Below are positions 3,339 through 19,152 of a stretch of DNA of 64,000 nt, piece by piece. Numbering within the stretch: the stretch's first letter is position 1; each line of letters opens with the position of its first letter. Under the pieces are notes generated by a model. It searched no databases. It saw only the letters and a program-made list of their open reading frames with translations, and was not told the DNA's origin. Origin of the DNA: Algoriphagus machipongonensis (GTDB lineage Bacteria > Bacteroidota > Bacteroidia > Cytophagales > Cyclobacteriaceae); the NCBI RefSeq assembly GCF_000166275.1, contig NZ_CM001023.1:3289001-3353000 (forward strand), read 5' to 3'. The position numbers and the translations under genes are program-made.

Positions 3339-4514
3339 ATGAATAAGTTAATCAACACTTGTATTTTATCGGTTCTTTTGACCCAGTTTTCCTGTGCACA
3401 GAACAATTCATCCACCTCACCTACCCCAGAAGGCAATCTTGCAGTGGTAGAAGCTTTCCCAGCTTTGTCTTTTACCCGACCAGTGGATTTCCAGCATGCA
3501 GGAGATAATACCAAAAGACTGTTTGTTGTAGAGCAGAGAGGAGTAATTTCTGTTTTTGAAAATGATGCTAATGCCTCAGAAAAAACCGAATTCCTTTCTT
3601 TAGAAAGTCAAGTTGATGATTCCGGAAATGAGGAAGGCTTATTGGGGCTTGCTTTCCACCCTGAATTTGTGAGCAACGGCTATTTTTATGTGAATTACAC
3701 AGCATCCAATCCAAATAGAACAATTATTTCAAGATTTTCCGTTTCTGCTTCCAACCCGAATCAGGCAGATCCTGCAAGTGAACTGGTACTTTTGGAATTC
3801 GAACAACCCTACTCCAATCACAATGGAGGACAAATTTCCTTTGGTCCAGATGGCTTCCTTTATATCGCTGTAGGTGATGGAGGAAGTGGTGGTGATCCGA
3901 AAGAGAATGGTCAAAACAAAAATACGCTGCTTGGAACGATCCTTCGAATAGACGTAAATAAGTCAAACGGCTCAAAAAGCTATTCTATTCCTTCGGACAA
4001 TCCATTTGTTAATAACTCAAATGGATTTAGAGAGGAAATTTACGCTTATGGTCTTCGGAATCCTTGGAGATTTAGTTTTGACACCGCCAACGGACAGCTT
4101 TGGGTGGGTGATGTTGGACAAAATAAATTTGAAGAAATAGATATCATCAAAAATGGAGGAAACTATGGGTGGAACAGAATGGAAGGATTCCACTGTTTTA
4201 AACCATCCGATTGTGATAAAACAGGCTTGGAAATGCCAATTTGGGAGTATGACAGGTCAAATGGAGACATTTCTGTGACTGGGGGCTTTGTTTACCGGGG
4301 TTCAAATTTTAAGGAATTAGAAGGTTTATATGTTTATGCGGATTTTGTATCAGGAAGAATTTGGAGCTTAGATGCTTCTTCTCCTGCTAGCCCAGTCAAT
4401 AAAGAACTTTTCGATATGGACTTTGCTATTTCATCCTTTGGAGTCGACCAAGACCAAGAGCTTTACATCTGTGGTTTTGATGATAAAATATATAAGTTCA
4501 AAAAGATTAATTGA
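3339..4514 (+). CDS. PQQ-dependent sugar dehydrogenase family lipoprotein (soluble aldose dehydrogenase/HHIP type)
   Basis: Six-bladed beta-propeller of the glucose/sorbosone dehydrogenase family, 391 residues, oxidising aldoses in the envelope with PQQ. The N-terminus is a lipoprotein signal with lipobox TQFSC (Cys19). Family signatures are RPVDFQHAGDNTKRLFVVEQ (48-67), EEGLLGLAFHP (98-108), SNHNGGQISFGPDG (159-172, containing the likely catalytic-base His161), YIAVGDGGSGGDP, YGLRNPWRFSFD and GDVGQNKFEEID. No PQQ biosynthesis genes are in the window, so cofactor supply is unknown. It lies 69 bp downstream of the GH43 gene on the same strand, which suggests co-transcription and sugar oxidation after polysaccharide cleavage (inference). 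Confidence 0.88.
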   Translation: MNKLINTCILSVLLTQFSCAQNNSSTSPTPEGNLAVVEAFPALSFTRPVDFQHAGDNTKRLFVVEQRGVISVFENDANASEKTEFLSLESQVDDSGNEEGLLGLAFHPEFVSNGYFYVNYTASNPNRTIISRFSVSASNPNQADPASELVLLEFEQPYSNHNGGQISFGPDGFLYIAVGDGGSGGDPKENGQNKNTLLGTILRIDVNKSNGSKSYSIPSDNPFVNNSNGFREEIYAYGLRNPWRFSFDTANGQLWVGDVGQNKFEEIDIIKNGGNYGWNRMEGFHCFKPSDCDKTGLEMPIWEYDRSNGDISVTGGFVYRGSNFKELEGLYVYADFVSGRIWSLDASSPASPVNKELFDMDFAISSFGVDQDQELYICGFDDKIYKFKKIN

Positions 4515-4674: not shown

Positions 4675-7600
4675 TTACTTTTTGATCAATCGCTTGTTCA
4701 TAACCAGCTGACCGGTTCTTATCTGCACCGTATACAGTCCTGAACTCAAATGGTCAATATTGATCTTATAGACTGCGTTTCCGCTTTCTACTCCTTCTTT
4801 CTCATAAACCAATCTTCCGACAGCATCAAAGATCCTGATCCCCACATTGACTGTTTGATCCAGTTCAATTTCAAGGGTCACATCAGATTCTGTAGGATTC
4901 GGATACATATTGAAATCTCCGAATTTAGGTTCACGGCTTAGCTCAATCACCCTTTCGATGGTCTGGCCTGCACGATCGGTACTAAATACTGTAATCCTTG
5001 CTGTGGCAGGTATTTTAGCACCTTTCCAAATGATTGATTTACCAACCAGTTCAAAATCAGCATTCTCAGCGATGGCATAGGTATGCTGATCATCCACAGC
5101 ATCAATCGTTCTTAGATCACCAATCACACTTCCATTTCTGGTATCTCTCTTAAGGATGGTATTGCTCAACTTAATATCGGATGCCAATGGCTTATCTTCT
5201 ACAAGCACATTCACTGTTATCGGTTCCTCAAGTATAAACCAATCGTTTTCTGCCAGTCCTGTGTTAAACTTATAGAGTCCGGACTGAAGGGAATTATACG
5301 ATTCAGTATTGATGGTCAGGTCGATGTCTTTTCCTTCAAACCAATCAGAACTCATACTTGTGATCATTTTCTCGATTTCTTCAGAAGAAGTGTTCCAAGG
5401 AACAGTTACCAAATCAGTGACCACTCTCTTATTCTTGCCTTTTGCCTGATGGATGGCAATTGAACCACCCCCCAAGACTGTAGCAACATCCGAGTTATCA
5501 TCAGCTCCTTTACCGTTATCATAGATGAGGCCTGAGTCGCCCCAGATTTTGATTCGGAATTCATCCGGAACAGATCCACCGTTATAGTCTCCATCGAGAG
5601 CAACTAAGGTAAATTTATATCCTGGAACTCCATTGATGGTTCCTTCACCTCTGTATGTAGCTTTCTTACCGGATATCACCAAAGTACCTGATTCATGTAA
5701 GGTGGACTTGAAGTTCAAATCTGCTGCTTTGAATTGGAATTCAGTATTTCCATCCACTTGGCTGGATCCCTTCTTGTACTTAGAAACAAATCCAAAGTTT
5801 GCTTTACCTGTCAGGCTTTTATCTGCCATATATGCCCCTTCTGGAGACATAATCCAGCCACCACCGGTGACAAAGTTTCCATTCGGATCATAAATCGGTA
5901 AGTAAGCCACAGATTCTACGAGTCCTGTACATTCAACTATAGTTGCTGATATTTTATAGACAACTGGTAGGCTAATTAATTCATCATCCGCTGATAAAGT
6001 TATTGTTGCCAAACCTGAATCATCTGTCAAAGCGATTTCCTCATAGACTCCATTATCTAAGGAGAATGTTACCTCAACTCCCGCAACAGCAGGAGATACG
6101 GTTGCTTTTAGAACTGCATCGTTTCCTAGCGGAACAGGAGTACCTGATTCGGAAGCATCAATGGTTAAAGGTACATTATCAAATATAGTCACCGTGGCAT
6201 CAGCATTGGCTGTATTACCGACTGCATCCGTTACAGTTACCGAAACGACATTGTCGCCCAGGTTGTCGCAATCAAACGTAAAGGATGTTGGGCTAAATAC
6301 CACATCACTACAGTTATCGGTCGCTGCAAAAATATCAGTTGCCTGCAGCGTCACTGTGTTTGTTAAGCCCAGTACTGCCGTTGGTGTTGGCGTTATTACG
6401 GTAATCACCGGAGCAGTTACATCTTTTACAATGACATTTTGAATAGCAGTAGATCTATTTCCACTACCATCATCAAAGGTCCAATTGATTTGGTAAGTGC
6501 CTTGCGCTGTATATTCAGTTGGATCAGTAGTCGTTCCTGTGATTGTACCACCACAATTGTCTGTGGTGGTTGGAGCACCAACTGACACACTGCATTCACC
6601 TGTCGCATCAGCCAAGATTGGGATCACTGGTGCTTCCGCATCTAGTACGGTAACCCTGAAGCTCTGCTGTATCGCTCCGTTGCCCGCTGCATCTACAGCG
6701 TCCACCGTTACGGTAGTAGTCCCTACGGGGAAAAATGAACCGGGGTCAATATTATAGCTGATGGTAGCACCAGGGCAATTATCAGCCACAGTTGCATTGA
6801 AGTTCACCACTGCACCACACTTGTTAGGATCATTGCCCGTCGTAATATAAGCCGGAACGGTAATCACCGGAGCTTGTATATCTACTACGGTTACGGTAAA
6901 GCTCTGCTGTATCGCTCCGTTACCCGCAGCATCAACCGCATCTACAAATACAGTAGTAGTCCCTACTGGGAAAAATGAACCGGGGTCAATATTATAGCTG
7001 ATGGTAGCACCAGGGCAATTATCAACCACAGTTGCGTTGAAGTTCACCACTGCACCACAAGCATCGGCATCGTTGTTCACAGTGATGGGTGCTGGTACAG
7101 TCACTACAGGTGCTTGTGTATCTACTACGGTTACGGTAAAGCTCTGCTGAGCTGCTTTATTACCTGCTGCATCTTCCGCGTCCACCGTCACGGTAGTAGT
7201 TCCTACTGGAAAAGTAGCATTAACATAGAAATCAAGTGAATTTACAGAACCTAGGCCACTTAAGGTTATCAAGCCTCCGTTTCCACTGGTGGTACAATTG
7301 TCCGTAGCAGATACCCTCACGTTGACAGTGCCACTGCACGTACCAGGATCATTGCTCACCGTAATATCTGCAGGAACAGTCACTACTGGGGCAGTGTTAT
7401 CTTCTACTGTAATGGTGGTAGCTGCTTCGCTGAATGCCCCTTTGCTATCGGTAACTCTTAACGTAACTGGTGTTGTACCCAACGAGTAAGGCCCTGCCGG
7501 GCTTACGCTAAAGGAAATCTCATCACCATCTGGGTCAGAGGAACCATTGTCAAAATCAGCAGCGGTAGCGGTACCCTGACAATTTGCATTTGCAGAGACC

Positions 7601-9048
7601 GTGACAGGCTGTGCAACTGCGATCGGTGGCTTATTGCAGTAACCATTTGGATCGGTTATCGTCACCGTATAGGAAGCAGAGGTTTTATTCCCTGCAAAAT
7701 CTTCAAAAGTTAAACTGATTCTGATAGTTCCAATGTTGGCACAAGTATAAACTTCTCCATTAGAAATAATTGGGGGCTCAAATTCACAGTTATCATATTG
7801 TGCAATAAGTACTCCATTAGTAGTGGGATCGGCATCTGCGGTTCCATCAGGCCCAATTTCTAAGGTAACATCCTGAACCATTAATACTGGAGGGGTATTA
7901 TCCTCGACAGTAATAGTCGTAGCAGCTGTGCTAGAACCGCCTTTACCGTCTTCAACAGTCAAATTCACGGCTGTCACGCCCAATGGATAAGGTCCTACAG
8001 GACTGACCGAGAAGGTAAGTGGATCGCCATCGGGATCTGTCGAACCTCCATCAAAAAGACTAGCGGTAGCCGTACCCTGACAATTTGAATCAGCAGAGAC
8101 TGTAAGGGTTTTTGCTACAGCAATGGGTGGCTTATTTGGATTCAAAACAAAAATGACTTTGCCATTGTTACCGTTGCCACCGCCCTTTGTACCTGCGGTA
8201 ATCATGACGTTAGTAGCAGTATTTCTTACGTAGGATCCACCGCCACCGCCGTTAGTTATACTAGTATTAAAGGCCCCGCCACCTCCAAAGGCCCCGCCAC
8301 CTCCACTATAGCCACCGCCACCTCCACCGCCACCAAAACCAGCATCGACACCGGTTCCACCGGTTCCTCCTTTTAGGATTGTTCCTCCAACTCCGGGGCC
8401 GGCGCTTGGCAAATCAACTATATTAAGAGAATTATCTCCGTTTGCACCGCCGCTTAGATAACCACCTCCGCCTCCGCCTCCGTAAGCATCAGCGCCACTT
8501 TCACTAATCCAACCTCCACCTTGTCCTCCGCTTCCATTTGAACCTCCAGGAATCCCAGGGTTGCCGCCTGAAGTACCACCTGTCGTTGTATTAGTTCCAC
8601 CAAAGCCAGGACCAGAGCCGCCGCTACCGCCTCCTCCACCTGCGATAACTAAAGGATTGCTCATAAAGTATACTGCAGAAGCATCGCCTCCTCCAGGAGC
8701 TATACTTAACATTGAAATTCCATTAGCCCCTACTTTAGGCAGTGTTGCATTTGGTCCAGCGGCACCAATTCTCAATTCTAGAACATCACCAGGATTTACA
8801 GAGAATGTACCAATTGCAGTTGCTCCTTTTCCTCCACTGACTAACGAACCCCCCAATATATTTCCCCCATCCGCTCCTAAGACCTCAATTGCGACACTAG
8901 TCACCCCACTAGGGATAATATATTGTTGAATAGGACCACCTGAATAATCGAAATTTTGTGTTATATTAACAATTTGCCCTTGGGTCGTTGGAACTATGTA
9001 TAAAATTGAAATAAACAGCACACATATTCTGAGTAATTTTCCTATCAT
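4675..9048 (-). CDS. Very large secreted HYR-repeat protein with glycine-rich head and T9SS type A sorting domain
   Basis: Extracellular adhesin-like protein of about 1457 residues. The ATG at 9048 gives a compact signal peptide (MIGKLL...TQG-Q); an ATG at 9069 would add seven residues. Order along the protein: a beta-rich segment; a low-complexity Gly-rich region (about 8720-8170); two PPIAVA...DPDGD modules; a run of HYR domains with repeated VTVPAxITVxND, FPVGTTTVxVDAxDAAGN and DNCPGATISYN motifs; a Big-like segment; a TGGGWI module (around 5870-5450); and a C-terminal sorting domain with MYPNPT, VRIFDAVGRLVYE-like and SSGLYTVQI motifs ending in KRLIKK. HYR domains mediate adhesion; the tail predicts type IX secretion. 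It stands alone with its own terminator. Two HYR units are nearly identical at DNA level (see the repeat entry). Confidence 0.9.
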   Translation of the reverse strand: MIGKLLRICVLFISILYIVPTTQGQIVNITQNFDYSGGPIQQYIIPSGVTSVAIEVLGADGGNILGGSLVSGGKGATAIGTFSVNPGDVLELRIGAAGPNATLPKVGANGISMLSIAPGGGDASAVYFMSNPLVIAGGGGGSGGSGPGFGGTNTTTGGTSGGNPGIPGGSNGSGGQGGGWISESGADAYGGGGGGGYLSGGANGDNSLNIVDLPSAGPGVGGTILKGGTGGTGVDAGFGGGGGGGGYSGGGGAFGGGGAFNTSITNGGGGGSYVRNTATNVMITAGTKGGGNGNNGKVIFVLNPNKPPIAVAKTLTVSADSNCQGTATASLFDGGSTDPDGDPLTFSVSPVGPYPLGVTAVNLTVEDGKGGSSTAATTITVEDNTPPVLMVQDVTLEIGPDGTADADPTTNGVLIAQYDNCEFEPPIISNGEVYTCANIGTIRISLTFEDFAGNKTSASYTVTITDPNGYCNKPPIAVAQPVTVSANANCQGTATAADFDNGSSDPDGDEISFSVSPAGPYSLGTTPVTLRVTDSKGAFSEAATTITVEDNTAPVVTVPADITVSNDPGTCSGTVNVRVSATDNCTTSGNGGLITLSGLGSVNSLDFYVNATFPVGTTTVTVDAEDAAGNKAAQQSFTVTVVDTQAPVVTVPAPITVNNDADACGAVVNFNATVVDNCPGATISYNIDPGSFFPVGTTTVFVDAVDAAGNGAIQQSFTVTVVDIQAPVITVPAYITTGNDPNKCGAVVNFNATVADNCPGATISYNIDPGSFFPVGTTTVTVDAVDAAGNGAIQQSFRVTVLDAEAPVIPILADATGECSVSVGAPTTTDNCGGTITGTTTDPTEYTAQGTYQINWTFDDGSGNRSTAIQNVIVKDVTAPVITVITPTPTAVLGLTNTVTLQATDIFAATDNCSDVVFSPTSFTFDCDNLGDNVVSVTVTDAVGNTANADATVTIFDNVPLTIDASESGTPVPLGNDAVLKATVSPAVAGVEVTFSLDNGVYEEIALTDDSGLATITLSADDELISLPVVYKISATIVECTGLVESVAYLPIYDPNGNFVTGGGWIMSPEGAYMADKSLTGKANFGFVSKYKKGSSQVDGNTEFQFKAADLNFKSTLHESGTLVISGKKATYRGEGTINGVPGYKFTLVALDGDYNGGSVPDEFRIKIWGDSGLIYDNGKGADDNSDVATVLGGGSIAIHQAKGKNKRVVTDLVTVPWNTSSEEIEKMITSMSSDWFEGKDIDLTINTESYNSLQSGLYKFNTGLAENDWFILEEPITVNVLVEDKPLASDIKLSNTILKRDTRNGSVIGDLRTIDAVDDQHTYAIAENADFELVGKSIIWKGAKIPATARITVFSTDRAGQTIERVIELSREPKFGDFNMYPNPTESDVTLEIELDQTVNVGIRIFDAVGRLVYEKEGVESGNAVYKINIDHLSSGLYTVQIRTGQLVMNKRLIKK
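6640..7119. repeat. Tandem 240-bp HYR-coding repeats inside the adhesin gene
   Basis: Two consecutive copies lie exactly 240 bases apart. The block 6721-6780 matches 6961-7020 with one difference in 60 bases, and the flanking 40 bases (6781-6820 against 7021-7060) differ at three or four positions, while 6681-6710 is more diverged. A third unit at 7120 onward keeps the period but is more divergent. The pattern implies recent duplication or gene conversion. Confidence 0.85.
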
Positions 9049-9876
9049 ATTGTTCGATTTTAATTGCAAAAATTATTTTTAAAAAACACCTTATAATCTT
9101 GCTAATCGCAAGTGCTATTGTTCTTTGTTACCCTCTCTAAGGACTATTTGGTGAGCTGTAATAAAAAACAAATTCGGGTGCTTGTTTATCCAAGTCTTCC
9201 TATTGCTTTGTGAACAGAGGTGAGTGCTACTTTCAGATTTTATTTCGATGAAAATCTATTCATATTATTTAGAGTAGCTAAACGTATTTGAAACTCTAAT
9301 TCACGTCACCTCAATACACTTTAAGTTCTCATCATCAAATCTTAAAATGAATTGCCAGTTGATTTAAATGATACTCCAGGGATGATATTTTTTTTGATTT
9401 TTAAATAGCAAAAAATGTATTTAGCCCCGAAAGTTAAACTTGCTCAGAAACTAGATGGATTAAAATGAACATAGGACGAGGATACATAAAGACTGTCCCA
9501 GTATATGGTTTTATTTCCCGAGGAAAAATTATAAATCAGTTATTCATTCTAAATCGAATGGCGTGATCGATTCTTTTCCAGGGATCCTTGGGAAAATATA
9601 TTTGTGCTGATTGAGTCTTTTAGTTAAGAATCTGAGTTCTTTGAAATTTGACTTTTCTAAAGCTTATTTTTTTTCATTTCTTTTACCTGACAACTATTTT
9701 TGATTCAGAAACTGCCTTACTTTTTTTGATTTGGCCCATATTCTAACTAAAATCAACTATTAACTGCCCAATTTCCAGCCAAATACACCCTATTAAATTT
9801 GGCGACTCAGCAAGCAAATTTCAGCTATTTGCATATCAGAGTCTGAGTTATTTATTAACAATCCTAAATTTCAATT
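9049..9876. other. Long intergenic region between divergent adhesin and ion-channel genes
   Basis: About 830 bases with no credible coding frame. It must hold the divergent promoters of the adhesin (leftward) and channel (rightward) genes. Just upstream of the adhesin, on the minus strand around 9070-9085, an A/T-rich TAATTTTTGC resembles a Bacteroidota -7 box with one base too many. I found no tRNA, clear hairpin or terminal inverted repeats. The stretch near 9490-9530 looks superficially like an insertion-sequence end but has no partner. Confidence 0.5.
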
Positions 9877-10968
9877 ATGAGGTCCAGAAAGGTCTACTAC
9901 CCCTTTATTTTACTTATTCTATTTCTAAGCAGTTCTAAGCTTATTGCCCAATCGGAAGTCCCTTCCACTGACACCTTACTCGTAGGGATCGCTGGTAGTC
10001 AGCCCTTTGTGTTTTCAAATAGCGTAGAAAACAAAGGCATTGCTGTAGAAATATGGGAGGATTTAGCTGCAAAAAAGAATTGGAATTATCGCTATCAATA
10101 TTTCGACCAAGTGGATCTGGCGCTAAGCGAATTAGCAAAAGAAAATGTGGACCTAGTGGTCGGTCCAATAAGCATCACCTCCTCAAGATTGGAAAACATG
10201 CGTTTTTCCCAACCCTTCTATAATTCAAGTTTATCAATAGTATCAAGGTCTGATGAATTGACGCTTTGGCAGAAAGTCAAACCTTTCTTTAGCTTCAAAT
10301 TATTAATAGCGGTGGCTATATTTTTATTTATTTTAAGCCTTGTAGGTACTTTATTATGGTTAGCTGAGCGAAAAAACTCTCCAGAGCAATTTCCAAAAGA
10401 TCCTATCAATGGGATCGGAAACGGAATGTGGCTTGCTGTGGTGACTATGAGTACGGTCGGCTATGGGGACAAAGCCCCAGTTACTCTTGCAGGGAGAATC
10501 ATTACGGGGACTTGGATTATTATCTCTATTATTTTTGCTACGTCCATGGTAGCTGGCATAGCAAGCACCTTGACTTTAAATTCTCTTGGAGAATCTACCA
10601 TTTTGAACATAGAGGAGCTTTCAAACCAAAAGGCTAGCACATTAAGTGGATCTCCTTCCGCCACATTCCTGAAAGAAAATAAAGCCAAAGTAATTGATTC
10701 CAATTCACTTGATGAAGCAATTAGCAAACTGGAGTCAAAAGAAGTAGAGGCGGTAGTTTATGATAGACCACAGCTTCTCTATTATATCAAGCAAAATCAA
10801 AGTAAAAACTTACATCTTGCAAAGGCTGAATATTTCAAACAAGGCTATGGTTTTGCATTTCCGATAAATTCAGGCCTAGTATACGATGTAAACCGGGCCT
10901 TACTAGAATTAGCCGAAGATCAAGAAACTGAAAAAATAATAAACAGCTATTTGGAGAAAGATGAGTAG
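9877..10968 (+). CDS. Ligand-gated potassium channel, prokaryotic ionotropic glutamate receptor (GluR0-like)
   Basis: Predicted amino-acid-gated K+ channel of the inner membrane, 363 residues, close to the size of GluR0. Order: signal peptide (1-25); lobe S1 of a family-3 solute-binding domain (about 32-130); membrane helix M1 (142-162); pore loop with the K+ selectivity filter TMSTVGYGD (190-198); helix M2 (205-231); lobe S2 (about 240-360). In S1, Arg104 in ITSSRLENMRFSQPFY sits where glutamate receptors and binding proteins hold the ligand alpha-carboxylate; in S2, Asp296 in AVVYDRPQL sits where they hold the alpha-amino group. Both suggest an amino-acid ligand. The next gene on the same strand is an alanine/glycine:cation symporter, which fits. 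The architecture is clear; ligand identity and gating are inferred. Confidence 0.9.
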   Translation: MRSRKVYYPFILLILFLSSSKLIAQSEVPSTDTLLVGIAGSQPFVFSNSVENKGIAVEIWEDLAAKKNWNYRYQYFDQVDLALSELAKENVDLVVGPISITSSRLENMRFSQPFYNSSLSIVSRSDELTLWQKVKPFFSFKLLIAVAIFLFILSLVGTLLWLAERKNSPEQFPKDPINGIGNGMWLAVVTMSTVGYGDKAPVTLAGRIITGTWIIISIIFATSMVAGIASTLTLNSLGESTILNIEELSNQKASTLSGSPSATFLKENKAKVIDSNSLDEAISKLESKEVEAVVYDRPQLLYYIKQNQSKNLHLAKAEYFKQGYGFAFPINSGLVYDVNRALLELAEDQETEKIINSYLEKDE

Positions 10969-11264
10969 TTGACATTTGGCCCTACCTCACCTTCAAAATT
11001 TTATTAAGAATATATTTTTCTAAAACTCTATTGATTATGCTAGTGCTTAATAAGAAGGGCTACGATCAGGCAATTTTCAGTTTGAAAATCTAAGTAAAAG
11101 TATGCTTTTTCCCATAACACCTAATTTTCAAAGGCAATCGATCATGAATTAAGCCCATTTAAAATGATTCTTCTGCTATAATCTCAGAATTTTCACTTTC
11201 TTCGGGTTCGTAATAAACCCAAGCTTAAGAAAACTTTATAGATTTAGAAGTATACCAATAAAAA

Positions 11265-12686
11265 ATGAAAGAGATAGTAGAAGCAATAAATGCAGTAGTT
11301 TGGAGTGATGCCTTGATACTCCTTTGCCTTGGAGCGGGAATCTATTTTTCCTTTGCTACCAAGTTCCTTCAGGTGACTTATATCAAGGAAATGGTTCAAC
11401 TTCTTTTTCGAGGAGAGTCATCCAAAGAAGGAGTTTCCTCTTTTCAAGCTTTTGCCATAGCCATCTCAGGAAGAGTAGGTACAGGAAATATCGCCGGAGT
11501 AGCCACTGCCATAGCCATGGGAGGACCTGGAGCTATATTTTGGATGTGGGTAATCGCTTTTTTAGGAGCAGCATCAGCTTTTGTTGAATCTACTTTAGGC
11601 CAGATATATAAAGAAGTAGATAATGGAGAGTATCGAGGTGGACCAGCCTATTATATCGAAAAAGGAATTGGTCTAAAATGGTATGCCATGTTGTTTGCCT
11701 TCGCTACCATCCTGGCCACGGCTATTTTCATGCCTGGAGTTCAAAGTAACAGTATTGCTTTATCCGTTGAAAATGCTTTCAACATCCCCGTTACTTATAC
11801 AGGTATTATTATTACTGCCCTTTTGAGTTTGATCATCCTAGGTGGAGTTAAAAGAATTAGTAAAGTTGCTGAAATTGTCATTCCGTTTATGGCGGCAGCT
11901 TATATCCTAATGGCAGTTGTTATCATTATTTTAAACATTGCAGAAGTACCATCCATTTTTGCCTTGATCATTAAATCAGCCATGAATTTAGAGGCTGCTT
12001 TTAGTGGTGTTTTTGGAATGGCTATCGCTTGGGGTGTGAAAAGAGGAATCTACTCTAACGAAGCGGGACAAGGAACGGCACCACATGCTGCTGCGGCGGC
12101 TGAAGTGAGTCACCCTGTTAAGCAAGGCTTGGTACAAGGCTTTTCTGTTTATGTCGATACCATCTTCGTTTGTACCGCTACTGCCTTGATGATCCTTTTT
12201 ACAGGACAATACAATGTCGTAAATCCTGAAGGAGGGTTTATCGTAGAAAACCTGCCAGGAGTAGCTTTCGGGCCTGAATACACGCAATTTGCTGTAGGGA
12301 CTCAGTTCCCAACATTGGGAAAAGGCTTTGTAGCAGTTTCTTTAATGTTTTTTGCTTTTACGACGATCATGGCTTATTACTATATCGCAGAAACTAACCT
12401 GAGCTATTTAATCAGAAACACCAATAACAGATGGGGAATATGGGTTTTAAGAGTTGGTCTTTTAGGAGCTACTTTTTATGGTTCCATTAAGACTGCAGCA
12501 CTTGCTTGGACCATGGGAGATATCGGTGTTGGAATGATGGCATGGCTAAACGTAATCGCCATTCTATTACTAAGGAAACCTGCTTTGAAGGCCTTCAAGG
12601 ATTACAAAAAACAGAAAAAAGAGGGCAAAGATCCAAAATTCATCGCCAAAGATGTGGGTATAGAAAATGCCGATTTCTGGAAATAA
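11265..12686 (+). CDS. Alanine/glycine:cation symporter family protein (AGCS, AlsT-like)
   Basis: Sodium-coupled uptake of small neutral amino acids at the inner membrane. It has 473 residues with about 11 hydrophobic helices. Family signatures include SSFQAFAIAISGRVGTGNIAGVATAIAMGGPGAIFWMW (central part about 63-100), the GGVKRISKVAEIVIPFMA region, and MAIAWGVKRGIYSNEAGQGTAPHAAAAAE around 250-280, the ligand/cation-binding consensus of the AGCS family. Length is normal for the family. It is 296 bp downstream of the GluR0-like channel, with no terminator recognised between, so both may respond to the same amino acids. A terminator follows the gene. Substrate specificity between alanine, glycine and glutamine-like amino acids is not resolvable here. 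Confidence 0.93.
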   Translation: MKEIVEAINAVVWSDALILLCLGAGIYFSFATKFLQVTYIKEMVQLLFRGESSKEGVSSFQAFAIAISGRVGTGNIAGVATAIAMGGPGAIFWMWVIAFLGAASAFVESTLGQIYKEVDNGEYRGGPAYYIEKGIGLKWYAMLFAFATILATAIFMPGVQSNSIALSVENAFNIPVTYTGIIITALLSLIILGGVKRISKVAEIVIPFMAAAYILMAVVIIILNIAEVPSIFALIIKSAMNLEAAFSGVFGMAIAWGVKRGIYSNEAGQGTAPHAAAAAEVSHPVKQGLVQGFSVYVDTIFVCTATALMILFTGQYNVVNPEGGFIVENLPGVAFGPEYTQFAVGTQFPTLGKGFVAVSLMFFAFTTIMAYYYIAETNLSYLIRNTNNRWGIWVLRVGLLGATFYGSIKTAALAWTMGDIGVGMMAWLNVIAILLLRKPALKAFKDYKKQKKEGKDPKFIAKDVGIENADFWK

Positions 12687-12711
12687 CCTTCAATTGAAAC
12701 TTTATAAAATG

Positions 12712-12741
12712 AGCCGACATTTACTGTGTCGGCTTTTTTTA
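12712..12741 (+). terminator. Terminator of the AGCS symporter gene
   Basis: The 8-bp stem AGCCGACA (12712-12719) / TGTCGGCT (12727-12734) with a 7-base loop is followed by a T-run. It begins 26 bp after the stop codon. Confidence 0.85.
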
Positions 12742-12765
12742 TACCCTTAAAATCTTTCAAAAAGA

Positions 12766-12809
12766 AAAAGAAAAATGCCCCCGAAAAGCAATAACTCATT
12801 GGGGGCATT
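12766..12809 (-). terminator. Terminator of the RND efflux operon
   Basis: The 9-bp stem AATGCCCCC (12774-12782) / GGGGGCATT (12801-12809) on the minus strand is followed by a T-rich run (complement of the A-rich 12760-12775). It lies 25 bp beyond the stop of the RND pump gene. Confidence 0.75.
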
Positions 12810-12833
12810 CTTAATATTAATTACAATGATGAT

Positions 12834-15800
12834 CTAGTGGTGATCGTGTGCGCTCGGATCATAATTAGCTTCCAATTCAGCCAAAGTCTTTTTCCCATAA
12901 GCTATTTTGGTTATGACCACATACAAAACTGGCACAAAGAAGATTGCTAAGAATGTTGCTGCCAACATCCCTCCAATCACTGTCCAGCCAATGGTCTGCC
13001 TAGCTACCGCCCCTGCCCCATTTGATAAGGCAAGAGGAACCACACCTAGGATAAATGCCATTGAGGTCATGATAATAGGTCTCAATCTCAATTTAACTGC
13101 TTCCAGGGTCGCTTTCAGAATTGGCATTCCTACATCAACTCGCTCTTTTGCAAATTCTACAATCAAAATAGCATTTTTTGCAGCCAAGCCGATCAAGGTA
13201 ATCAAACCAATTTGGGCATAAATATTATTATCCAACTTCGGTAAGAAATGCAAAGCAATGATGGCTCCAAATGCACCTAATGGAAGTGCAAGTAAAACCG
13301 AGAATGGTACAGACCAACTCTCATATAAGGCTGCCAAAAGTAAGGAAACCAAGACAATTGCCAGTGCAAAAATCAGGATTGTGCTATTTCCAGAAGAAAG
13401 TTCCTCACGGCTCAAACCTGAGAAATCATAGCCATAACCTGCTGGCAGAACTTCTGCCGCAACTTCTTCTAAAGCAGTTATCGCTTGACCACTACTATAG
13501 CCTGGCGCTGCATTTCCATTTATCTCAACCGATCTAAATAGATTGTAATGCGCAATTGCAGAAGCATTCTCTACCACTTCATAATTTACCAATGCACTTA
13601 GCGGCACTGTCTCTCCACCTGTACTTTTCACATAATATTGCTGTAAATCGTCTATTCCAGCACGGTAAGAGGTATCCGCTTGTGCTACAACACGGAAGTT
13701 TCTTCCATATCTGGTAAAGTCATTCACATAAGCACTTCCCATGTAATTTGACATGGTGGTGAAGATTTCAGTCAAAGGAACTCCCAGTTTTTTCGCTTTT
13801 TCTCGATCTACTGTGACATGATAGCCTGGAGTCTTTGCATTAAAGAAACTGTAGGCCATTGCAATCTCAGGTCGCTGGTTTGCTGCAGCAAGGAATTGGC
13901 CCATCACGGATTCTAACTCCTTGATATCTCCCGAACTCGAACGCTGTTCTAGCATAAAGCTGAAACCTCCTGTTCTACCTAAACCAGGAATTGCTGGTGG
14001 AGCAACCACCACAACGTTTCCTTCAGTGATAGAAGAGAACTTCTGATTCAAGGTCCCCATAATCCCAGCCAACTGAAGGGATGGATCCTGCCTTTCCTCC
14101 CAGGGATCCATTTGTACAAAGAAAGTCGCTGAATTTGATTTAAAGGAAAAGCTAATCACGTTTAAACCACCAATACCCGTCACATGGTTGATACCTTCAG
14201 TATCAGCAAGGATCGTATTAATCTTGCTCATAACTTCTTGTGTTCGGTTACTTGAAGATGCTTCTGGCAATTCTAAAGTGATATATAATCTACCCTCATC
14301 CTCAGTTGGCAAGAACCCAGTGGGCTTGGTTTGAAACAAACCAAATGTTCCCGCAAAGATACAGATGAGTAAAATCAAGACGAGCGGTGCTCTTTTAATA
14401 CTAGCCTTTACTCCACTGGTGTAGTTATTTGTAGTTCGCTCAAACCATAAATTGAATTTGTAAAAGAACTTATTCAAGCCTTTTCCATGCTCATTTACCT
14501 CAGATGGTTTCAGCAGTAGCGTACAAAGTGCCGGAGTTAAACTCAAGGCTACAAACGCCGAAATCAATACAGAGATGGCAATCGTAATAGCAAATTGCTG
14601 GTACATTCTTCCTACAATTCCAGGAATAAATCCAACGGGAATAAATACTGCACTCAAGATCAAAGCTATAGCAATTACCGGTGCCGTAATATCCTTCATC
14701 GCCAACTTTGTAGCTTCTTTTGCAGAGATTTTTCTGGAATCTATATAATGCTGTACTGCCTCCACTACGACAATCGCATCATCTACCACAATTCCAATTG
14801 CGAGAACAAAACCAAATAGAGTCAGGGTATTGATCGTAAACCCTAATAGCGGGAAGAAAATAAATGTACCAATGATGGAAACTGGTATCGCTAATACAGG
14901 AACTAAAGTTGCTCTCCAACTCTGTAAGAACAAAAACACTACAAAGATCACAAGCAATAAAGCTTCACCAAAAGTGTGAAGTACCTCATCAATGGATACC
15001 TCCACCACAGAAACTGATTCAAATGGAACCGTATACTTCATATCTGTTGGGAAAGACTCCTGCAACTCATCCAAAGCACCATAAACTCCTTCGGCAGTTT
15101 CCAGAGCGTTACTACCTGGAGCCTGATAAATCAAGAGAATAGCTGATTCTTCTCCATCCAATGTAGAATACCTTCCATAATCAAATTGTCCTAACTCGAT
15201 TCTAGCTACATCTTTTAAAAACACGATAGAGCCATCCTGCGGATTCGTTCTTAACACGATATCTTCAAACTCTTCTGCTCGCTCTAATCGACCATTAACG
15301 GTAATTGGATATTCGAAAGCTTGATAATCGTATTGAGGCATACTCCCAACAGTACCAGCAGCTACTTGAAGGTTCTGTTCCTGAATGGCTGAAGTCACTT
15401 CTCTTGCAGTAATACCATATTGTGCAAGTTTATCAGGCTGAAGCCATACTCGCATACTAAAGTCCTGTCCAATGGCTGTAATATCTCCTACCCCATCCAC
15501 TCTCAACAAGGCATCCTTGATAAAAATATTGGCGTAATTGGATAGAAACTTCCGATCATGAGTTCCCTCTGGGGAAGTGATACTTAGCACCATCATGATT
15601 GATGGGTTCCTTTTTCTTACCACTACTCCCAAACGCCGTACGGCCTCAGGAAGAGAAGGCTCCGCAATGGATACCCTGTTCTGAACATCCAACGTGGCAA
15701 TGTCAATATCAGTCCCCACCTCGAAAGTGACATTCATTTGCATCTGCCCCGTACTGGTATTATTGGAAGATATGTATGCCATTCCAGGCGTTCCATTCAC

Positions 15801-16007
15801 TTGTGTTTCAATTGGAGTGGCTACGGTTTGCTCCACCGTTTTGGCATCTGCACCTGTATAATTTGCAGCGACGGATACCACTGGAGGAGTAATATCCGGG
15901 TATTGGGTCACAGGAAGATTTAAAATCGCTAATACTCCCACCAGCACTATCACAATGGATATGACCATTGCAGTTACCGGCCGTTTTATAAATACATCTG
16001 ATATCAT
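12834..16007 (-). CDS. RND efflux pump inner-membrane transporter (HAE1/AcrB type)
   Basis: Proton-driven multidrug exporter of 1057 residues, the standard AcrB length. It starts MISDVFIKRPVTAMV, typical of the family. Two sets of six helices flank large periplasmic loops. The proton-relay pair Asp409-Asp410 lies in AIGIVVDDAIVVVE (TM4), and the first periplasmic domain carries the VEQTVATPIE and TLDVQNRV motifs. A His-containing C-terminal tail (YDPSAHDHH) is seen. It is the last gene of a four-gene operon behind a TetR regulator, a TolC-like channel and a periplasmic adaptor; the spacing to the adaptor is 30 bp. Substrates are probably hydrophobic drugs or detergents, but the sequence does not specify them. 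Confidence 0.95.
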   Translation of the reverse strand: MISDVFIKRPVTAMVISIVIVLVGVLAILNLPVTQYPDITPPVVSVAANYTGADAKTVEQTVATPIETQVNGTPGMAYISSNNTSTGQMQMNVTFEVGTDIDIATLDVQNRVSIAEPSLPEAVRRLGVVVRKRNPSIMMVLSITSPEGTHDRKFLSNYANIFIKDALLRVDGVGDITAIGQDFSMRVWLQPDKLAQYGITAREVTSAIQEQNLQVAAGTVGSMPQYDYQAFEYPITVNGRLERAEEFEDIVLRTNPQDGSIVFLKDVARIELGQFDYGRYSTLDGEESAILLIYQAPGSNALETAEGVYGALDELQESFPTDMKYTVPFESVSVVEVSIDEVLHTFGEALLLVIFVVFLFLQSWRATLVPVLAIPVSIIGTFIFFPLLGFTINTLTLFGFVLAIGIVVDDAIVVVEAVQHYIDSRKISAKEATKLAMKDITAPVIAIALILSAVFIPVGFIPGIVGRMYQQFAITIAISVLISAFVALSLTPALCTLLLKPSEVNEHGKGLNKFFYKFNLWFERTTNNYTSGVKASIKRAPLVLILLICIFAGTFGLFQTKPTGFLPTEDEGRLYITLELPEASSSNRTQEVMSKINTILADTEGINHVTGIGGLNVISFSFKSNSATFFVQMDPWEERQDPSLQLAGIMGTLNQKFSSITEGNVVVVAPPAIPGLGRTGGFSFMLEQRSSSGDIKELESVMGQFLAAANQRPEIAMAYSFFNAKTPGYHVTVDREKAKKLGVPLTEIFTTMSNYMGSAYVNDFTRYGRNFRVVAQADTSYRAGIDDLQQYYVKSTGGETVPLSALVNYEVVENASAIAHYNLFRSVEINGNAAPGYSSGQAITALEEVAAEVLPAGYGYDFSGLSREELSSGNSTILIFALAIVLVSLLLAALYESWSVPFSVLLALPLGAFGAIIALHFLPKLDNNIYAQIGLITLIGLAAKNAILIVEFAKERVDVGMPILKATLEAVKLRLRPIIMTSMAFILGVVPLALSNGAGAVARQTIGWTVIGGMLAATFLAIFFVPVLYVVITKIAYGKKTLAELEANYDPSAHDHH

Positions 16008-16037
16008 CTGTTATTTAATCAAGTCTTTAAAAAAGAT

Positions 16038-17150
16038 TTATTGGGCAGCTGTTTGCTCTGTAATCTGAGCGCCCTCACGAAGTTTCTGGATCCCATTCAC
16101 CACGATCTTTACTCCTTCCTGCAACCCATTCCTTACGACTATATTTTCTCCGATTTGGGTTCCCAATTGGACTACTTGCTGCTTTACAGTGTTATCATCC
16201 TGTACTACATACACAAAGTACTCTCCCATTTGCTCCGTAACAGATTGATATGGTATCGTCAATTGCTCGCCAATATCCTGATTCAACACTCTCAAATTCA
16301 CTGTCATCCCCGCAATCAATTCTTTGTCAGGGTTGGGGAAATTCACTCTGATGTTGATCGTTCCAGAATGTCTCCCTACTGCTCTATCGATGGTAGTAAA
16401 TTCTCCAGAATAGGGATAAATACTTCCGTCACTCAGCTGGATTGTCATTAAAGAATCAAGTTTTTCCTCAGCTCTGAGTAAACGATTAAAGCGAGGAATC
16501 TCTTTTTCATTAATCACAAAATTCAATGCCATGGGATCTGTTGAAGAAAGGGTATTTAACAAGGGCTGTCCCGGTGAAACCTGAGATCCAAGTCTTACTT
16601 GGGAGATACCCACAGTTCCATCAAAAGGTGCCGTCAAAACAGAATAAGAATAATCAGTTTTTGAGGACTCCAGCTGTGCTTTTGCAAAAGCCATTTGAGA
16701 TTTCGCATCCAAAACTGCTGTTTCCGCATGATCCAATTGCTGTTTGGCAATCGCGTCTTGCTCGTCTAGCCTTTTATATCGCTCAAAATCTTTGACCAAC
16801 TTATTATAGTTAGCTTCAGCACTTGCTAAATTTGCCTCTGCTTGCTGCTGTGCTGCTGCATATTTGCTGCGGTCAATCTCATATAATCTCTGCCCTTTCT
16901 TGACTTCCTGTCCATCCTTAATGTAGATATTAGTGATGTATCCGCTAATTTGGGGTCTGAGCTCCACCTCATTCAAGGGAACTAGAGTCGCTGGGTAAGT
17001 ATCCACACCCGTTACAGACTTTTTTACAACCTGATAGGTGTCTACTAAGACTGCAGTAGGTGTTGGTGGTCCTGCCTGTTGTTTTGTACCGCAAGACATA
17101 ACCGTAAAAATCAGCGCTGAAAAGGCTACAATGCTAAAATTTGATTTCAT
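16038..17150 (-). CDS. RND efflux periplasmic adaptor (AcrA/MexA type) lipoprotein
   Basis: Membrane-fusion protein of 370 residues linking the RND pump to the outer-membrane channel. The lipobox VMSC places the acylated Cys at residue 20. A split lipoyl/barrel-sandwich region (PQISGYITNIYIKDGQEVKKGQ and later TAPFDGTVGISQVRLGSQV) flanks an alpha-helical hairpin rich in A, Q and K (about 95-165), followed by beta-barrel and membrane-proximal domains. It lies between tolC-like and pump genes with gaps of about 30 bp on either side, the usual adaptor-pump order. Confidence 0.95.
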   Translation of the reverse strand: MKSNFSIVAFSALIFTVMSCGTKQQAGPPTPTAVLVDTYQVVKKSVTGVDTYPATLVPLNEVELRPQISGYITNIYIKDGQEVKKGQRLYEIDRSKYAAAQQQAEANLASAEANYNKLVKDFERYKRLDEQDAIAKQQLDHAETAVLDAKSQMAFAKAQLESSKTDYSYSVLTAPFDGTVGISQVRLGSQVSPGQPLLNTLSSTDPMALNFVINEKEIPRFNRLLRAEEKLDSLMTIQLSDGSIYPYSGEFTTIDRAVGRHSGTINIRVNFPNPDKELIAGMTVNLRVLNQDIGEQLTIPYQSVTEQMGEYFVYVVQDDNTVKQQVVQLGTQIGENIVVRNGLQEGVKIVVNGIQKLREGAQITEQTAAQ

Positions 17151-17181
17151 TATATATTGAATTATAGATTCCTGTTTAATT

Positions 17182-18501
17182 TTATTCGATGATTCCTAAA
17201 GCTTTTTGAAGATCAAGCTTGCTCTCCAAAACCTGGAAAATTGCATTTAGGTGATTGATTTGAGCTGTTCTTAAATCAGATTCAGCCACAACCAATTCCA
17301 CATATGCCTTGATTCCCTCATCGTATTGAAGCTTTATGATATCATAGACTTCTTCTGCCATCTCCATATTCTCCCGGATATTCTCCCACTCGTAAATGCT
17401 ACTTTGATAATCAGAAAGTGCTACTTCGTATTCCGTCCTGATTTGACTTCCTAAGTTCTGTAAATCAATTGCTCCTCTTTCGACCTGAAGGTTGGCAACC
17501 CTAACTCTGTGATTTCTTTCGCCTCCTTTGAAGATTGGGAGAGAAAGTGTCAACCCCACTGAAGAAGTTGGGTAAGCCTGATTATATAAATTGGAAAAGC
17601 TTTCGTTGAAATAAAGCCAGTTGTACCTGTAATTCGCAGAAAGCTCAGGCAGGTAATTCCATTTTTCGTAGCTAGACTGGATTTCGGTCAATGTCTGCTG
17701 TGTCTGCATGATTTGATACTCAACTCTGTTTTCCAAAATGAGAGGCTCAGTATCATCCATATAGATTTCGGAAATCATTTCTTCCCGATCAAAAACAAGA
17801 GTAAAATCCAACTCATCAGGATATCCCATCAATTGCTTTAGATAAGCATATTTAGCTTTGAAAGAAGTTTCTACGCGGTTCAAGTCACTTTCTTCATTGG
17901 ATAAAGCGATACTTGCTCTCTGATAGTCGGTCTTATCTACTAAGCCAGATTCATATCTGTTTTTGGCATCTTGAAGCTGCTTTTGAAGCCGACCAATATT
18001 CTCCTTTAGGATGTTGAGTTGCTCTCCAGCCAATAAAATATCATAGTAAGCTTTGCTTACCTCAACAATGGTATTGATCCGGGTATTTTCAATTGCATCT
18101 TCAAGCTGTTCCCGATAATATTTTGAACTTTTTGAAGCAAATAGCTGATCTCGGTTAAAAAGAGTCTGGTTTACCTGAAAAAGTACATTAGAGTTCCAAG
18201 GCTGACCAAAGGTGATCAACTGATCACCAATTACCTGGGTCTGTAATTTGATATTATAATTTCCTCCTGCCGATACATCAACCTGAGGAAACCAACCCGC
18301 CAAACTGGCTTTGATCTCATGATCTCCAATTTCCTCATCAATCTGAGATTGACGGATCAAGGGGCTATTGAGCAATGCATACTCCAAAACCTGATCAAGA
18401 CTAATATCACCTTGAGGGATAGGCGATTCATCTTGTCCGTAGCTACTTGTTGAAATAAGCAATATGCTTAAAGCAACGAGTAAAACTTTTTTGTTAAACA
18501 T
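17182..18501 (-). CDS. TolC family outer-membrane efflux channel
   Basis: Outer-membrane factor of 439 residues that forms the trimeric exit duct of the RND system. It has a cleavable signal peptide (about 1-22, ending SSYG-Q). Two internally repeated helical coiled-coil segments are visible, for example ISLDQVLEYALLNSPLIRQSQ near the start and a second copy around LSLPIFKGGERNHRVRVANLQ. The SLPIFKGG motif is characteristic of the family. It lies 44 bp upstream of no other gene than the adaptor in its operon and about 45 bp after the regulator gene, so repressor, channel, adaptor and pump are probably one transcript. Confidence 0.93.
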   Translation of the reverse strand: MFNKKVLLVALSILLISTSSYGQDESPIPQGDISLDQVLEYALLNSPLIRQSQIDEEIGDHEIKASLAGWFPQVDVSAGGNYNIKLQTQVIGDQLITFGQPWNSNVLFQVNQTLFNRDQLFASKSSKYYREQLEDAIENTRINTIVEVSKAYYDILLAGEQLNILKENIGRLQKQLQDAKNRYESGLVDKTDYQRASIALSNEESDLNRVETSFKAKYAYLKQLMGYPDELDFTLVFDREEMISEIYMDDTEPLILENRVEYQIMQTQQTLTEIQSSYEKWNYLPELSANYRYNWLYFNESFSNLYNQAYPTSSVGLTLSLPIFKGGERNHRVRVANLQVERGAIDLQNLGSQIRTEYEVALSDYQSSIYEWENIRENMEMAEEVYDIIKLQYDEGIKAYVELVVAESDLRTAQINHLNAIFQVLESKLDLQKALGIIE

Positions 18502-18545
18502 AAAATTGAAATTGAATAATTTGATTTCTTTAATTTTCTATGAAT

Positions 18546-19121
18546 CTATTTTTTGATACCAGCCCAAATGAGGTTAGGTATTTCTTCCAGGTCCAAATTG
18601 TTTTTCGCCAGCTTTTTCCCAAAACTCTTTCTCACCTTGACAATAGAATTCACATTGGTATTAACCATGATGGAAAGGATAACAGGATTTATTTTTTTGA
18701 TGGCACCTTCTTCTACTCCCATTTCGAAAAATGAATAGCACCACTCATGCCAGATATTGGGTTTATTTTGATTCTCCTCAGAGTTAAAAGGAGAATTGAG
18801 AAATTGATCGTAAAAGCCGTGAATAGATGGGTTTTTAAAATAAAACTCAGAGAGATTTCTCCAGTAATTAAAAAAACGTTCTTCAAAATTGAGTTTCCTA
18901 TCATCCTTTGATGACACGAAGTTTTTGATCTGTTGTGAAGCATATTCAAACAGACCCAAGATCAATTCATCCTTACTTTGAAAATAGGTATAGATGGTAC
19001 CTGCTGCTACACCTGCATTTTTAGCTACTTGGCTTATAGGGCAGCCATGAAAGCCGTGCTCATTGATTAATTCAAGAGCGCTATCGAAAATACTGGTCTT
19101 TTTATCTGATAGTTTTTCCAT
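18546..19121 (-). CDS. TetR/AcrR family repressor of the RND efflux operon
   Basis: DNA-binding repressor of 191 residues if started at the ATG at 19121 (MEKLSDKK); an upstream in-frame ATG at 19142 adds MIERSFI. I prefer 19121 because it gives the usual TetR N-terminal length. The helix-turn-helix spans about residues 18-55: GCPISQVAKNAGVAAGTIYTYFQSKDEL, with GTIYTYF as the recognition-helix signature. The C-terminal ligand domain has no recognisable specificity. It is the first gene of the efflux operon on the same strand, and a 40-bp palindrome covers both possible starts, so autorepression together with control of the pump is likely. Confidence 0.92.
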   Translation of the reverse strand: MEKLSDKKTSIFDSALELINEHGFHGCPISQVAKNAGVAAGTIYTYFQSKDELILGLFEYASQQIKNFVSSKDDRKLNFEERFFNYWRNLSEFYFKNPSIHGFYDQFLNSPFNSEENQNKPNIWHEWCYSFFEMGVEEGAIKKINPVILSIMVNTNVNSIVKVRKSFGKKLAKNNLDLEEIPNLIWAGIKK

Positions 19122-19152
19122 AATGAATGAACGTTCAATCATTATGGAAAAA
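19113..19152. promoter_or_regulatory. 40-bp near-perfect palindrome, candidate TetR operator of the efflux operon
   Basis: The palindrome is centred between 19132 and 19133. The core TGAACGTTCA (19128-19137) is flanked by AATGAA / ATCATT, then CCAT / ATGG and TTTTT / AAAAA. Only one symmetric base pair (two positions) breaks the symmetry in 40 bases. It spans both candidate start codons of the TetR gene, so bound repressor would block transcription or initiation of the operon. Confidence 0.75.

Follow-up and report, generated by a model that had tools for sequence, protein, structure and literature searches.

A GluR0-type potassium channel gene and its alanine/glycine symporter neighbour in Algoriphagus machipongonensis

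The stretch of DNA considered here, referred to as the window, comprises 64,000 nucleotides of Algoriphagus machipongonensis (contig NZ_CM001023.1, positions 3,289,001 to 3,353,000). At 9877-10968 on the plus strand it holds an open reading frame (ORF) of 363 amino acids (aa), with an ATG start and no internal stops, which is followed on the same strand by the gene of an alanine/glycine:cation symporter (AGCS). An earlier note on this DNA had ascribed to the first gene the full architecture of GluR0, the glutamate receptor-like K+ channel of Synechocystis, and the reading as a GluR0-type channel is supported by the domain order, by a two-part alignment to the ligand cores of GluR0 and NpGluR0 and by the invariance of the filter and ligand residues. 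The features of the channel gene are:

9877..10968, plus strand: GluR0-type K+ channel gene (ORF of 363 aa; solved-chain alignment, Pfam, alignment of 71 relatives)
9877..9951, plus strand: probable signal peptide, residues 1-25, end ...LIAQ (hydropathy peak centred at residues 14-20; cleavage site by eye)
9973..10251, plus strand: first half (S1) of the domain that binds the amino acid, residues 33-125 (alignment with 1ii5 and 2pyy)
10186..10188, plus strand: codon of Arg104, in register with the Arg that holds the alpha-carboxylate in GluR0 (invariant in 71/71)
10291..10365, plus strand: M1 transmembrane helix, approximately residues 139-163 (hydropathy; borders approximate)
10453..10470, plus strand: K+ selectivity filter TVGYGD, residues 193-198 (T193 and GYGD invariant in 71/71; pore matches K+ channels)
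10489..10569, plus strand: M2 transmembrane helix, approximately residues 205-231 (hydropathy; borders approximate)
10588..10956, plus strand: second half (S2) of the domain that binds the amino acid, residues 238-360 (alignment with 1ii5 and 2pyy)
10654..10656, plus strand: codon of Pro260, Thr in GluR0 and NpGluR0 (Pro in 70/71 relatives)
10762..10764, plus strand: codon of Asp296, in register with the Asp that holds the alpha-amino group in GluR0 (invariant in 71/71)

The order of elements in the protein is a hydrophobic N-terminus, S1, M1, the TVGYGD pore, M2 and S2; the hydropathy profile displays the N-terminal segment and two further hydrophobic segments between the binding halves. Four Pfam families pass their cut-offs, SBP_bac_3 (63.3 bits, extending across the pore), Lig_chan (49.6 bits), Ion_trans (40.2 bits) and Ion_trans_2 (37.7 bits), and Lig_chan-Glu_bd lies half a bit above its own (30.5 bits versus 30), while an NCBIfam scan of the channel yielded only matches far under cut-off. 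When the protein was compared with solved chains by phmmer, the S1S2 core of GluR0 (1ii5, 1iit) was the best match (whole-sequence E 1.3e-27), aligned to 1ii5 in two pieces around the pore (residues 33-124 and 244-347); the third rank was taken by the bacterial homologue 2pyy, NpGluR0, likewise in two pieces around the pore (best 60 of 408 matches). NpGluR0 presumably originates from Nostoc punctiforme. A profile built from the 71 relatives, which returned eight chains, also placed GluR0 first, and 2pyy fourth after the GlnPQ binding domain 6h30. Of the solved chains in these two listings, only GluR0 and this one further homologue are ligand cores of bacterial ionotropic glutamate receptors (iGluRs). 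Searched by itself, the pore segment matches K+ channels (e.g. Kv1.3, 7wf4; mll3241, 2zd9; 1orq) as well as iGluRs among the best 60 of 266 matches.

The 71 aligned relatives were picked from 120 listed ones and are 60-88% identical to the protein of the window. R104, D296, T193, G195, Y196, G197, D198 and Q112 are invariant in all of them. The two residues which the earlier note had named as holding the amino acid, Arg104 and Asp296, are indeed found at their places, in register with GluR0, and the filter T193-x-GYGD198 also lies where that note placed it. In 41 distant Bacteroidota homologues, taken from family and phylum searches, the filter motif GYGD is present throughout (41/41), R104 in 39 and D296 in 38. 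Architecture, residues and conservation were directly observed, as was a low ratio of nonsynonymous to synonymous substitution rates (dN/dS): the value is 0.05-0.08 in the four of ten pairs for which it could be computed, at dS of 1.4-2.4, and 0.053 against the orthologue from Algoriphagus yeomjeoni (genome G017), where dS of ~2 is near saturation. This low dN/dS suggests a maintained protein under constraint.

The likeness to GluR0 (slr1257; 1ii5, 1iit, 1iiw) extends from the arrangement of S1 and S2, in order around a two-helix pore, to the GYG filter (for GluR0 as described in PMC13099474), the Arg/Asp clamp, the DRP motif at the clamp Asp and the Gln at the dimer interface, where channel Q112 aligns with Q127, a residue reported to be required for GluR0 to dimerise; K354 is the other residue named there (PMC13099474). 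GluR0 comes from another phylum. NpGluR0 shares with the channel the bacterial iGluR ligand core, the two-piece alignment and the G-S loop. Twelve Group 1 prokaryotic iGluRs with the same architecture and filter and with conserved Arg and Asp have been described by Ger et al. 2010 (PMC2950845); their binding halves flank two helices and a K+-type filter, as in the channel, a likeness drawn from the published description. PMC6385376 likewise treats GluR0 as a binding protein combined with an inverted K+ pore. According to a 2026 paper, GluR0 resides in the plasma membrane, supports growth of K+-uptake-deficient E. coli in a manner requiring its soluble domains, and affects cell volume, its loss resulting in faster shrinkage after KCl upshock, which is presented there as the first physiological function for GluR0 (PMC13099474).

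The channel is rare in its own genus, where it was found in five of 72 genomes including that of the window, and relatives are plentiful in the databases. A search of 5.8 billion proteins, from which 7999 candidates were scored, gave 1164 relatives at E <= 0.001; those carrying names among the best 120 of the 1164 are labelled substrate- or solute-binding proteins. At E <= 1e-40, matches, mostly 28-38% identical, were obtained in 16 of 245 genomes of a family sample and in 29 of 395 of a phylum sample, and at an identity of at least 55% in four and two genomes, respectively, the window's own being counted in each. The closest named relative found among genome contigs is from A. yeomjeoni (83%), whose sequence matches the contig of G017, a genome placed in the genus of the window. 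Close relatives that carry names come from Algoriphagus, Brumimicrobium, Bizionia, Gelidibacter and a Dysgonamonadaceae metagenome-assembled genome (MAG); a 64% relative is filed as Candidatus Scalindua rubra, again a MAG. In a Dysgonamonadaceae MAG (L008, 1372-2505), the channel frame is split into two ORFs, by decay or by an assembly error. The earlier note knew no described example from Bacteroidota. A limited search of the open-licence literature agrees, in that it disclosed no described example from this phylum, and the string 'Bacteroid' is absent from the main text of Ger et al. 2010 (PMC2950845).

The earlier note had further identified the next gene as a sodium:alanine/glycine symporter, and this identification is secure: the protein exceeds the cut-offs of TIGR00835 agcS (485.2 versus 272.65 bits) and PF01235 Na_Ala_symp (540.3 versus 24 bits) and is a clear AGCS member in which nothing unusual was seen. 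The features between and beyond the two genes are:

10969..11264, plus strand: intergenic gap of 296 bp from channel to AGCS gene (ORF positions)
11164..11222, plus strand: AGCS leader core with inverted repeat (found at 11 of the 14 further AGCS loci examined in the genus)
11265..12686, plus strand: AGCS sodium:alanine/glycine symporter gene, 473 aa (TIGR00835, 485.2 bits; PF01235, 540.3 bits)

An AGCS orthologue of at least 70% identity is present in 34 of 60 genus genomes, 29 of which lack the channel. Channel and AGCS stand side by side on one strand in three of the five carriers in the genus, namely the window (gap 296 bp), G017 (306 bp) and G018 (217 bp), so that the pairing is shared by three species and the refuting case which the earlier note had named, a pairing in this strain only, does not apply. 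In the remaining two carriers, G001 and G032, both fragmented assemblies, the genes lie on different contigs: no channel is found in the stretch upstream of AGCS (641 bp in G001, 239 bp in G032), and no AGCS downstream of the channel within 2.4 kb (G032) or 0.3 kb (G001).

Conservation of the pair beyond the genus was not observed. When the flanks of channel relatives outside the genus were searched by tblastn with the AGCS protein of the window (E <= 1e-10), none of 11 loci with long flanks and none of 45 with short flanks contained an AGCS gene. The long flanks are uneven (1.3-8 kb a side), the short ones span ~1.5 kb and some less, and four genes occur in both sets (L016-L018 and L032, listed again as L067-L070); L011, a 31% partial match, was excluded from the 11, and L003, which is the G017 contig, was counted once. 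With the same query, the other AGCS that the genus possesses was detected at E < 1e-53 despite an identity of just 33-38%, so that a distant AGCS in the outside flanks would have shown. When the ORFs lying up to 4 kb from the channel at 16 loci were compared all against all, matches appeared solely where both loci belonged to one genus. Nine chosen neighbour proteins of the channel, seven from outside the genus and two from G001 and G032, were assigned by Pfam, and all except one matched: three are methyltransferases, one is a peptidase and one an acetyltransferase, one has an MscS-type domain, and two fall into conserved families without an assigned function. The seven from outside the genus have unrelated functions. 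In one outside locus (L070, from G594, 8163-10165), a 55% channel relative is followed after 150 bp by a gene with an MscS-type domain, a single case that would fit a role in turgor.

The region before the AGCS gene contains a leader with a 59-bp core. At 11 of the 14 other genus loci examined the core scores 28-53 against shuffle maxima of 15-19, with 43-56 identical bases of 58-59, located ~40 or ~130 bp before the start; its inverted repeat reads GGGTT...AACCC, with arms that vary, e.g. GGGTTC...GAACCC in G037. Among these 11 loci the channel is adjacent in two (G017, G018), located elsewhere in one (G001), apparently deleted with a scar in one (G044) and absent from seven; of the 13 genus loci examined that have no channel next to AGCS, nine have the leader. 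The leader alignment took in 13 of the 15 genus AGCS loci, G032 and G052 being left out and scored separately. An Rfam scan of window positions 9000-13000 at gathering score, aimed at a known RNA element before AGCS, gave no match, and a sigma-70 promoter scan of 9100-12900 found 12 sites versus 11.2 expected, which is chance level. The sigma-70 consensus is generally not suited to Bacteroidota. In most examined species, the leader fits a regulatory element that would belong to AGCS, independent of the channel. A channel-AGCS operon is not supported, given the 296-bp gap, the AGCS gene's own leader and the neighbourhood data.

The history of the locus can be followed in part through G044, a genome without the channel, whose AGCS is 92% identical to that of the window. 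The gene upstream of it is the orthologue of window 3339-4514, named by eye and presumably encoding a PQQ-type sugar dehydrogenase, and in G018 the orthologue of the same gene stands upstream of the channel. Between the dehydrogenase-like gene and AGCS, G044 has an intergenic region (L071, 7942-8276, in minus-strand reading) with homology to the one in the window; its upstream end matches the last codons and the stop of the channel gene in 15 of 15 bases, further matches follow past a 4-base gap, and the match passes without interruption into the intergenic part that is homologous in the two genomes. When only the last 60 nt of the channel are compared, two of 2000 shuffles reach the score. 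Against the whole channel gene the local score of 19 is not better than that of shuffles (mean 16.4, maximum 26), and three of 11 other genus loci (nine without the channel, two with it elsewhere) score 19-22 at other parts of the gene, so that the claim rests on the position of the match; G044 probably carries a deletion scar, which points to an earlier presence of the channel at this place. The trees of the two genes conflict. In the channel tree the window groups with G017 (support 84/87 in a small tree; 97/97 for a six-row set in a large tree), and approximately unbiased (AU) tests reject a grouping of the window with G018 and G001 (p 2e-6) and, barely, one with G018 (p 0.046). In the AGCS tree the window groups with G018, G001 and G044 (87/87), apart from nine other rows that include G017 (99/96), and a grouping with G017 is rejected (p 1.8e-5). 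The apparent scar and the conflicting trees make it likely that the channel has been both lost and exchanged inside the genus.

The reading that accounts best for these observations, to which we assign a probability of roughly 0.82, is that of a GluR0-type, amino-acid-gated K+ channel of patchy distribution, next to which AGCS forms a separate and more widespread unit. Membrane orientation, assembly, K+ selectivity, ligand gating and physiological use are carried over from homologues. On this basis, S1 and S2 would form a periplasmic clamshell closing on a free amino acid, with Arg104 holding the alpha-carboxylate and Asp296 the alpha-amino group; closure would open the inverted two-helix TVGYGD pore, and K+ would flow down its gradient, changing membrane potential and turgor. 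The best guess for the use of such a channel, by analogy with GluR0, is that it helps to balance K+ and to set cell volume. AGCS looks like a local neighbour, its arrangement with the channel being inherited locally within one genus. Several points weigh against this reading. The channel has Pro260 in the distal pocket where GluR0 has Thr, and K354 of GluR0 is not kept, falling on Tyr336 when aligned by manual count. The pair is kept in three species, of which G017 has different outer flanks, and this gives a functional link some probability. Nor is the leader universal: it was not found at G009, G032 and G052, where scores do not exceed those of shuffles, and 15 loci were looked at versus 34 genomes with the orthologue. 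With respect to the ligand, Pro260 is present in three of four closer homologues and in only two of the 41 distant ones, and it sets the subfamily apart from NpGluR0 as well, which has Thr at this position. In AMPA receptors, the counterpart of this Thr (T655) makes contact with the gamma-carboxylate of glutamate. As Pro replaces the Thr of GluR0, the ligand may not be glutamate; it is probably an alpha-amino acid, for which glutamate is not a safe guess.

A functional module, in which an amino-acid-opened K+ conductance sets the potential for, or offsets the charge of, Na+-coupled alanine/glycine uptake, would explain why strand and order are the same in the window, G017 and G018 despite the differing outer flanks of G017, and why the close relative G044 still has what looks like a remnant of the channel at this position. 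We consider such a module unlikely given the 296-bp gap, the leader that occurs also where the channel is missing, the two of five carriers in which the channel is not seen beside AGCS (both in fragmented assemblies), the lack of AGCS beside all 11 and 45 loci outside the genus and the 29 of 34 orthologue-bearing genomes without a channel. The coupling of amino-acid sensing to uptake, as proposed in the earlier note, thus finds no support, and the adjacency to AGCS is no evidence for a new system. A more specific variant, a Bacteroidota GluR0 subfamily marked by Pro260 and opened by another, perhaps small and neutral, amino acid, with the AGCS adjacency arising from a link of sensing and uptake via the membrane potential, appears very improbable.

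The patchy occurrence (5/72), the conflict between channel and AGCS trees (AU p 2e-6 and p 1.8e-5), the apparent deletion in G044 and the split frame in the Dysgonamonadaceae MAG could also be taken to indicate a stray mobile acquisition or a decaying gene of no present function. The intact frame, the low dN/dS (0.05-0.08 in four of ten pairs) and the functional residues invariant in 71/71 make this very unlikely. A binding domain without ligand gating in the cell, attached to a plain K+ leak or a stretch-responsive pore for turgor control, is improbable too: the amino-acid clamp of Arg and Asp is invariant in 71/71, which an unused site would not need. Such a pore would nevertheless be compatible with the altered distal pocket around Pro260 and with the GluR0 work, where, in the sections concerned, the rescue of E. 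coli growth is described without mention of added ligand and membrane tension is raised as a possibility in the Discussion (PMC13099474). The GluR0-type, amino-acid-gated channel remains our preferred reading. As a finding about the window it is ordinary: the type of protein is already known, and most species of the genus do without it. The diverse Bacteroidota set with its changed ligand pocket would be a useful source on which amino acids gate early iGluRs, and it could also inform why bacteria keep or lose such channels.

Two further observations concern the surroundings of the pair. Window 4675-9069, between the gene at 3339-4514 and the channel, encodes an HYR-domain protein of 1464 aa that bears a Por secretion tail, and this gene is not at the corresponding place in G018 or G044. 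Past AGCS, window 12834-19142 contains RND-type efflux genes and a TetR-like gene (names by eye), in an order common to the window and G044 and partly to G018 and G037.

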